Shown in pieces: positions 53,132 through 54,478 of a DNA stretch of 64,000 bases. The translations under genes were made by a program, and so were the position numbers. The first letter of the stretch is position 1. Each line of letters starts with the position of its first letter. The stretch is from Alphaproteobacteria bacterium (GTDB taxonomy: Bacteria; Pseudomonadota; Alphaproteobacteria; JANQMY01), in assembly GCA_028289425.1 (NCBI GenBank), contig JANQPL010000018.1:124001-188000 (forward strand), written 5' to 3'. Below the pieces are notes generated by a model that saw nothing but the letters and a program-made list of their open reading frames with translations, was not told where the DNA came from and made no database searches.

Positions 53132-54478
53132 CTACTGACTGATACGAAGCGTTCTGATGGACGCGGAGATGACGCTGAACGCTTCTGCCAAATTCAGGCC
53201 CTCAACGAACAGGTATTGGCTGCTGTTTTGCGGGCACTGGCTGAGCAGATTGTCCGCGTCGCTGCCATCCTCGATATCGAAACCGATCGAGAACACCAGC
53301 ACGTCATTGGCGCGCGCTTGACTGCAGATCGACAAGAAGCGGCTTTCCGCGGTGGAGTCAGACACATCGTACGGGTTGATCTTACCGTCGCTCATAACCA
53401 CCAACACTTTGAGCGTGTCGTTGTCATTGAACGGCTTGGGGCGGTCATCGAAGTCGCCATTGAAGCGCCCGGTCCAGGCATCCGACAGGGCTTTGTAACC
53501 CCACATGGCACCGATGTGCAAAGACGTTGCGCCGTCAGCATCGTAGTTTGAAACGGCATTCGTCAGTGTGGTAACATTGTTAGAGATAAAGATCGGATAG
53601 AAATCCGGCTTGCAGTCGCCGTTGCTGGATTCTTCCCGGCCGCCGAAAGTGATGAGTTCACCGTCGAAATCAGAAGCTTCGTAGTCCATGCAGCCATTCC
53701 AGCTGTTGTAAACTTCTTCAATTTCTTCATCGGTCATGGTGTCGGGGTCGCAGCTTGCGCCACCATCATCATCATCGTCGTCGTCATCATCGTCATCGTC
53801 GTCATCATCATCGTCGTCGTCATCATCGTCGTCATCATCGTCTTCACGATTACAATCGAGCGAATCCCATTCGACGAATTCGTTGAAGTCCGGCCCCAGA
53901 CGCACATTTGTCGAGTAAGGGATGAGGCTTACAGACGTTGTTAAGGCAGCATCGCCCGCCAGCATTTCTGTAACAAATGACGTGGTCGCCGAACGCAGAT
54001 TGGAAATTTTGGATCCGGACATAGATCCCGACACGTCAAGCACGACGGAGACTTCCACGTTGCCGATGGCTTCTTTGCCGACGGCCGAGACCGAGATCGG
54101 AACGCTATGCATCCCGATCGCGCCGAGAAACATGGTGTCTATGCTAAAGCTGGCATCAACATTCACGATCGATGAATTGATCGTCTTCGTTGATGTTACA
54201 TTTACAGTGACGGACGCCGGATCGATGATCGAAGAGTGGATATTCGACATCAGATAGTCGCGGATAACGGTTTCCGGGTCGCGATCATTCGTCATGGATG
54301 CGGCAGCAAGAACGCCCGCATCAATCGCGCCTTGGATTTCCGTTTTTGCCCCGGCAATGCGCATTAGATCGACTGCGCCGCCGGCAAAGACAAAAAGGGG
54401 CACAGCAATCAATGAGGCCAAGATAAGAATGTTGCCGCGCTTGTCGGCGATAAATCGCTTGAGGAGTGACTGAAACAT
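53132..54478 (-). CDS. TadG-like von Willebrand factor A protein with poly-aspartate tract
   Basis: A 448-residue protein, first gene of the proximal Tad-like operon. The N-terminus has the TadG-type anchor (KRGNILILASLIAVPLFVF, about residues 13-40) and GAIDAGVLAAAS. A vWA domain begins near 140 with the MIDAS motif DVSGSMSG at 148-155, then SLIPYSTNVRLG, TSLHIGAMWGYKALSD and VVMSDGKINPYD. Inserted in the vWA domain near residue 211 is a run of 26 Asp (53765-53842), followed by a Cys-containing acidic segment. It probably sits in the periplasm or at the outer surface in a Tad-related apparatus. Its paralogue at 55896-57224 lacks the poly-Asp. Confidence 0.88.
   Translation of the reverse strand: MFQSLLKRFIADKRGNILILASLIAVPLFVFAGGAVDLMRIAGAKTEIQGAIDAGVLAAASMTNDRDPETVIRDYLMSNIHSSIIDPASVTVNVTSTKTINSSIVNVDASFSIDTMFLGAIGMHSVPISVSAVGKEAIGNVEVSVVLDVSGSMSGSKISNLRSATTSFVTEMLAGDAALTTSVSLIPYSTNVRLGPDFNEFVEWDSLDCNREDDDDDDDDDDDDDDDDDDDDDDDDDDGGASCDPDTMTDEEIEEVYNSWNGCMDYEASDFDGELITFGGREESSNGDCKPDFYPIFISNNVTTLTNAVSNYDADGATSLHIGAMWGYKALSDAWTGRFNGDFDDRPKPFNDNDTLKVLVVMSDGKINPYDVSDSTAESRFLSICSQARANDVLVFSIGFDIEDGSDADNLLSQCPQNSSQYLFVEGLNLAEAFSVISASIRTLRISQ
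53765..53842 (-). repeat. GAY trinucleotide repeat encoding 26 aspartates
   Basis: Twenty-six consecutive Asp codons, 14 GAT and 12 GAC in mixed order, uninterrupted from 53842 to 53765 on the minus strand. The unit is 3 bp, so changes in repeat number would keep frame and alter only tract length. The opposite strand reads as poly-serine and is a shadow. Confidence 0.9.

Follow-up and report, generated by a model that had tools for sequence, protein, structure and literature searches.

The locus with two TadG-TadE-TadE trios

The window analyzed here is the whole stretch of 64,000 nucleotides from an alphaproteobacterial contig, and all coordinates refer to it. On its minus strand, two TadG-TadE-TadE trios are arranged in tandem at 52010-57224, between two genes which we take to be lpdA and lipA by the similarity of their ORFs. 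Trio A occupies 52010-54478, and the TadG-like proteins of the two trios are called copy A and copy B (Table 1). Each TadG gene is followed by two TadE-like genes; three of these four score above the PF07811 cut-off, and the fourth falls just under it. In copy A, the Tad pilin-like N-terminus (PF13400) was matched at residues 15-61 with 34.7 bits against a cut-off of 22.3. The von Willebrand A (VWA) domain PF00092 reached 30.7 bits against 23.8, its best stretch covering only the first part of the domain (residues 143-201). NCBIfam gave zero matches for the six trio proteins, and Rfam gave none at the gathering score in window positions 50000-60000. Between 51600 and 57600 there are 9 promoter-like sites (4.5 in shuffled sequences) and 12 terminator-like sites (7.0 in shuffled sequences), numbers from which no conclusion was drawn.

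Table 1. Features of the two trios and of copy A, in window coordinates
Feature	Position	Strand	Basis
TadG-like minor pilin with VWA, copy A, 448 aa	53132..54478	-	PF13400, PF00092
TadE-like minor pilin, trio A, 182 aa	52575..53123	-	PF07811 36.6 bits, cut-off 22.9
Second TadE-like minor pilin, trio A, 185 aa	52010..52567	-	PF07811 27.3 bits, cut-off 22.9
TadG-like VWA paralogue, copy B, 442 aa, without tract	55896..57224	-	PF00092 35.2 bits, PF13400 27.4 bits
TadE-like minor pilin, trio B, 182 aa	55337..55885	-	PF07811 40.8 bits
Second TadE/TadF-like protein, trio B, 184 aa	54772..55326	-	PF07811 22.3 bits (cut-off 22.9), PF16964 20.4 bits (cut-off 27.3)
Poly-Asp tract, 26 codons	53765..53842	-	translation; residues 213-238 of copy A
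MIDAS motif 1, Asp148-Val-Ser150-Gly-Ser152	54023..54037	-	alignment
Thr318 of the MIDAS, role taken from the VWA family and CpaL by analogy (PMC12607857)	53525..53527	-	invariant in A, B and the G001 protein
MIDAS Asp364, assigned by analogy	53387..53389	-	alignment
Cys209, first of six Cys, N-terminal loop border	53852..53854	-	matched by hand to Cys218 of copy B
Cys243, second Cys, C-terminal loop border	53750..53752	-	invariant alignment column

The genome carries Tad machinery, read as RcpC/CpaB, a secretin and Flp pilins. Its main Tad cluster is on contig C4 and comprises a TadG whose VWA_2 match is below the cut-off, two TadE, RcpC/CpaB and a secretin with a pilus N-domain. Six Flp-type pilin matches are spread over contigs C1, C3, C4, C12, C18 and C19; five of them are above the family cut-off, and one is in the main cluster. 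The trios of the window resemble the TadG of Tad clusters, with its TadE/TadF partners, in gene order and in the PF13400 and PF07811 matches. They differ from it in that the trio is tandem-duplicated, stands apart from the machinery between the presumed lpdA and lipA, and has poly-Asp in one of its copies.

A search for close relatives covered 59 genomes, namely our own and 58 others, of which one (G001) belongs to the same genus and the other 57 to the same class only. In G001, one trio occupies this place, with the same neighbours and without the tract, and copy A is absent. Besides this trio, the TadE of trio A is matched in G001 only within the main Tad cluster. The G001 assembly is fragmented (630 contigs, 97% complete, 10% contamination), and the trio locus is on one contig. 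In the TadE tree, A is placed outside B and G001 with a support of 96/90, and the trees of TadG and of the third gene gave no resolution. Counts of shared residues favour B with G001 for all three genes (72 vs 55 and 47; 33 vs 9 and 10; 31 vs 22 and 9). Judging by these sequences, either the duplication would predate the split and G001 would have lost copy A, or copy A would have evolved faster. When the tract was removed, the end branches of the TadG tree measured 0.48 for A, as compared to 0.39 for B and 0.35 for G001. Copies A and B are identical at 228 of 429 aligned positions (53%), and neither this identity nor the end-branch length suggests any visible decay of copy A.

The tract and its place in copy A

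The initial annotation had described a run of 26 aspartates inserted in a VWA domain of a protein expected outside the cytoplasm, and in only one of two paralogues. Translation of the minus strand gave exactly 26 Asp residues at that position, and copy B has no such run. The PF00092 match and a complete MIDAS bear out the VWA domain, and the Tad-type pilin N-terminus PF13400 is in agreement with a location outside the cytoplasm. The tract is built from 14 GAT and 12 GAC codons in irregular order, and the longest run of a single codon is 4. In the whole genome (5,417,975 bases, 20 contigs), a pattern of at least eight consecutive GAY codons gave 19 overlapping matches, all at a single location, the tract itself. 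Elsewhere in copy A, Asp accounts for 38 of 422 residues, so that 26 consecutive Asp (a chance of about 0.09^26) are far beyond chance. The reading frame of copy A is open through the tract, the domain downstream is aligned with the paralogue, and no frameshift is visible. We also considered that the Asp tract might be read in the wrong frame and rejected this, because the Asp frame is an ORF of 449 codons and the five competing frames do not exceed 130.

How the tract arose was assessed from its codons. The mixture of GAT and GAC had been put forward as a sign that the tract is not a fresh slippage product. It turned out that this claim holds in so far as the tract is not a pure single-codon repeat, but the mixing is no special sign of age. 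Among the runs of at least 10 GAY codons that were read in the class, 31 of 33 are mixed as well, so the mixed codons are uninformative on age, and old age was dropped as their explanation. Fresh slippage of a single codon was also rejected: no pure run is longer than 4 of the 26 codons, and such interruptions argue against easy single-codon slippage. For the same reason, the tract does not have the long uninterrupted short repeat of a phase-variable simple sequence repeat. A block duplication within the tract found no support in shuffles (longest internal repeat of 9 codons, p 0.105; autocorrelation, p 0.58). Tandem Repeats Finder (TRF) reported units of 3, 15 and 18 bases at the tract, which by themselves are no proof of duplication. 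The purity of the tract, as a sign of selection on Asp, amounts to about (1/3)^6 in a rough reckoning, and this figure was left unused because the tract had been picked for its purity.

The MIDAS of copy A is complete (Asp148, Ser150, Ser152, Thr318 and Asp364), and none of these residues varies between A, B and the G001 protein. The tract lies downstream of the first MIDAS motif, as had been claimed; its distance from Ser152 of the DxSxS motif is 61 residues rather than about 55. The other two MIDAS residues, Thr318 and Asp364, assigned by analogy, come after the tract. The tract sits inside a VWA insertion that reaches from the PYS strand to the MIDAS threonine, and 26 of the 128 residues between Ser189 and Thr318 are consecutive Asp. 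Both paralogues have six cysteines in the same order (209, 243, 263, 289, 385 and 415 in A; 218, 225, 246, 279, 379 and 409 in B). Cys209 and Cys218 were paired by hand from order and context, because MAFFT left this pair unaligned on account of the tract. The spacing between the first two cysteines is 33 residues in A, where it holds the tract, and 6 both in B and in the G001 protein. By this comparison, the tract looks like an expansion of a short loop, the one that joins the first and the second of the six common cysteines, and Cys209 and Cys243 may be joined by a disulfide.

The statement that the loop is acidic in both paralogues was borne out: from the PYS strand to WNGC, the acidic fraction is 0.32 in A with the tract removed and 0.28 in B. 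The tract shifts the net charge of copy A from -32 to -58. AlphaFold models built from 3-row alignments had a mean pLDDT of 46.7 for the whole of copy A and 46.3 for the VWA part of copy B, too low for either model to support the geometry of the loop. A PDB sequence search with copy B returned clathrin entries only, with E values of 0.32 or worse, and these were taken as chance.

Aspartate runs in TadG-VWA proteins and in the class

We determined how common such a run is among homologues. The search with copy B covered 289 genomes of the class and gave matches at E <=1e-8 in 70 of them, our own included, with at most five first-look candidates scored per genome. The loci of both searches and forty fetched stretches yielded 90 ORFs that carry a MIDAS-like D-x-S/T-x-S/A-M motif. 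Copy A or B was matched by 89 of them, and removal of duplicates left 84. The 84 are ORFs and not genomes; they include copy B, the G001 protein and main-cluster proteins and exclude copy A. Homologues without the motif were dropped, and two loci (G231:C9 and G058:C1:1149627) were left out. A long Asp run occurs in 1 of the 84 ORFs, and in the other 83 no run exceeds three. The exception, from genome G139 (L104/L167), has 10 Asp followed by Glu-Asp, making 12 Asp and Glu in a row, with poly-Gly flanks, in the VWA insertion after W-x-G-C. It resembles copy A in having the run inside the VWA insertion. It differs in that the run is elsewhere in the insertion and is flanked by poly-Gly, and the protein groups with main-cluster TadG rather than with A and B. 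Its PF13400 and VWA_2 matches are just above the cut-off and its PF00092 match is below. Copy A also stands apart in charge: at -12.9 per 100 residues it is more negative than any of the 84 other ORFs, which have a median of -1.2 and a minimum of -10.5. Without the tract the value is -7.6, near that of B (-8.1), and 5 of the 84 ORFs are then more acidic. Thus, the poly-Asp run is real, correctly located and an outlier within its protein family; a long Asp run is unusual for TadG-VWA proteins and is no general need of theirs.

In the class as a whole, runs of at least 15 GAY codons were found in 7 of 385 genomes, including our own, and runs of at least 10 in 32 of 385, in various proteins. In the control with the reversed pattern, there were zero matches at 15 or more codons, and two genomes (G111 and G177) matched at 10 or more. 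Of the ORFs bearing these tracts, 31 from 31 of the 32 genomes were read; G043 and further tracts in G184, G280 and G286 were left out. These 31 ORFs hold 33 tracts. All of them besides copy A, which was scanned separately, were compared with Pfam. The 30 ORFs comprise five FYDLN_acid proteins, two ScpB, two subtilases and one TadG-VWA, the G139 protein. SecA, RpoD, FecR, a histidine kinase, a polysaccharide deacetylase and a multihaem cytochrome are also among them. Nine ORFs had no Pfam match at all, and three had matches below the cut-off only. In some cases a competing frame is as long as the Asp frame or longer (L162, L064 and L184 are examples). In L165 and L176 it is more than three times longer and the Asp frame has no family support, so both are doubtful. 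The FYDLN_acid, ScpB, subtilase, SecA and RpoD proteins likewise have runs of at least 10 Asp, nearly always with mixed codons, but they are unrelated to copy A and several of them are cytoplasmic. Asp runs thus turn up in cytoplasmic and exported proteins alike, and their presence in SecA, RpoD and ScpB means that an extracellular role does not follow from an Asp run. That a second TadG-VWA protein is found among the 30 other ORFs is suggestive, although this was noticed post hoc.

Several other features were seen in these ORFs. Within the class, Asp runs are frequent in FYDLN_acid (PF09538), which accounts for 5 of the 31 ORFs (L159, L170, L172, L173 and L175). The two subtilases (PF00082; L161 and L171) come from different genomes and have their Asp runs before the protease domain, one of them after an Asp-Gly array. 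The FecR-domain protein (L184, from G013) has a very long Pro-Glu repeat and then two Asp runs. L185 and L186, which have no Pfam match, share similar C-terminal ends, and in both the Asp run comes soon after a hydrophobic N-terminus.

Possible role of the poly-Asp loop

The protein family of copy A is known, and the poly-Asp loop looks like a variant within it and not like a new system. In the accessible text of the report on CpaL of Caulobacter crescentus, this protein is described as a pilin-like module with a VWA domain that a beta-rich insertion interrupts, and it is modelled at the pilus tip (PMC12607857). By that description, CpaL is like copy A in its pilin-like N-terminus, its VWA domain, the DxSxS...T...D MIDAS and an insertion between the VWA halves, and its gene is likewise outside the main pilus cluster (PMC12607857). 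The insertions differ: compared by description, the CpaL insertion spans residues 204-383, has two beta-barrels and projects away from the MIDAS (PMC12607857), whereas copy A has 128 residues of which 26 are Asp. Since the CpaL insertion projects in this way, the tract of copy A may not be on the MIDAS face. PilB of Streptococcus sanguinis is likewise a modular minor pilin with a VWA domain and a MIDAS, which is flanked by two arms, according to the available part of its report (PMC8179133). It belongs to the type IV pilus of a monoderm, in contrast to copy A, and the same part of the report does not mention an acidic homopolymer (PMC8179133). By analogy, the segment with the tract would occupy the same place as the CpaL insertion and the PilB arms. 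For other bacteria, complexes of TadE, TadF and TadG at the tip are predicted, as stated in the excerpt available (PMC12075869). Among the papers listed in our literature search, none was seen to link TadG with an Asp homopolymer; subscription journals were largely outside its reach, which makes it weak evidence of absence.

We propose that copy A is a minor pilin of the TadG/CpaL type at the tip of a Tad pilus, and that its 26 Asp form a disordered anionic loop acting as a charged spacer and a cation-condensing patch. We consider the chances for and against this proposal to be about equal. The pilus tip would hold the pilin-like N-terminal part, and the VWA domain with its complete MIDAS would face outwards. 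The 26 Asp would form a disordered, strongly anionic loop of this domain, which would act as a spacer by its charge, condense divalent cations and repel anionic surfaces. Tip A would then differ electrostatically from tip B, giving two alternative tips. The export of copy A, its position at the tip, the disorder of the loop, the condensation of cations and any effect on adhesion are all presumed in this proposal. Of the explanations considered, an electrostatic working of the loop seems the least demanding and the most likely.

Its main rival is an expansion that was merely tolerated: the triplet run would have grown unopposed in a duplicate gene, in a loop that was acidic and exposed beforehand, and would have no dedicated function. 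This is somewhat less probable, yet it deserves serious attention. The finding of runs of at least 10 GAY codons in 32 of the 385 genomes, in various proteins, speaks for it, as do the restriction of the tract to one paralogue, the acidic flanking loop in both and the single trio without a tract in the same-genus genome. It fits less well with the 83 of 84 other TadG-VWA ORFs in which no Asp run exceeds three. The third codon positions are mixed while the first and second stay constant over 26 codons, as if Asp had been kept; this point against tolerance is weak, as the tract was picked pure.

In a more specific variant, the tract would be a calcium-binding switch that alters adhesion through the VWA domain. 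The density of carboxylates in the tract is compatible with this. Asporin is a calcium-binding protein. According to the accessible parts of the respective papers, asporin has an N-terminal Asp stretch (PMC6771297), and Asp is enriched, though less than His, in low-complexity regions of proteins annotated with nickel binding or metal-ion transport (PMC6821194). However, one would expect cations to condense on a homopolymer rather than to occupy a defined site. In the available text on PilB, a VWA minor pilin of solved structure, Mg and Mn are bound and calcium binding was not detected (PMC8179133), although this concerns the MIDAS of a protein with no known Asp tract. We find a specific calcium switch unlikely.

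Much less probable still is an effect at the level of translation, in which the tract would destabilize the ribosome in a Mg-dependent manner, abort part of the TadG synthesis and so set its ratio to TadE. TadG is the first gene of the trio, which would suit such an effect. Runs of ten Asp or ten Glu are reported to destabilize the ribosome, in the portion of the paper available (PMC9718836), and the same is stated for early acidic residues in the accessible text of another (PMC11282234). But by both accounts the effect is mainly N-terminal (PMC9718836; PMC11282234), with EttA dependence in the first 30 residues (PMC11282234). Here 212 residues precede the tract, and for this reason the explanation is ranked low, even though the former indicates in its accessible part that stronger motifs within E. 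coli ORFs can have an effect, depending on their context (PMC9718836). An artefact of assembly or base calling in the length of the tract, to which low-complexity DNA is prone, is scarcely credible for 78 bases with an irregular GAT/GAC pattern, an intact frame and an aligned downstream domain.

The proposal of a charged tip loop can be carried further. Tad tips might be diversified by duplication of the trio together with a polyanionic homopolymer loop between two VWA cysteines, so that one tip would sense or use divalent cations or surface charge and its sister would not; the G139 protein would be an independent second case. This we offer as speculation, with the odds well against it.

The biological weight of the tract is modest until the conservation of its length or a phenotype is shown. 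A neutral tract would add one more case to the low-complexity loops that proteins tolerate. In Alphaproteobacteria, long Asp runs are seen repeatedly in a few protein families, and VWA minor pilins of the TadG type are candidate mechanosensors and adhesins at the tips of Tad pili. A natural pair of tips with and without the 26-Asp loop, which are 53% identical and also differ elsewhere, may offer an entry to the role of loop charge in adhesion.
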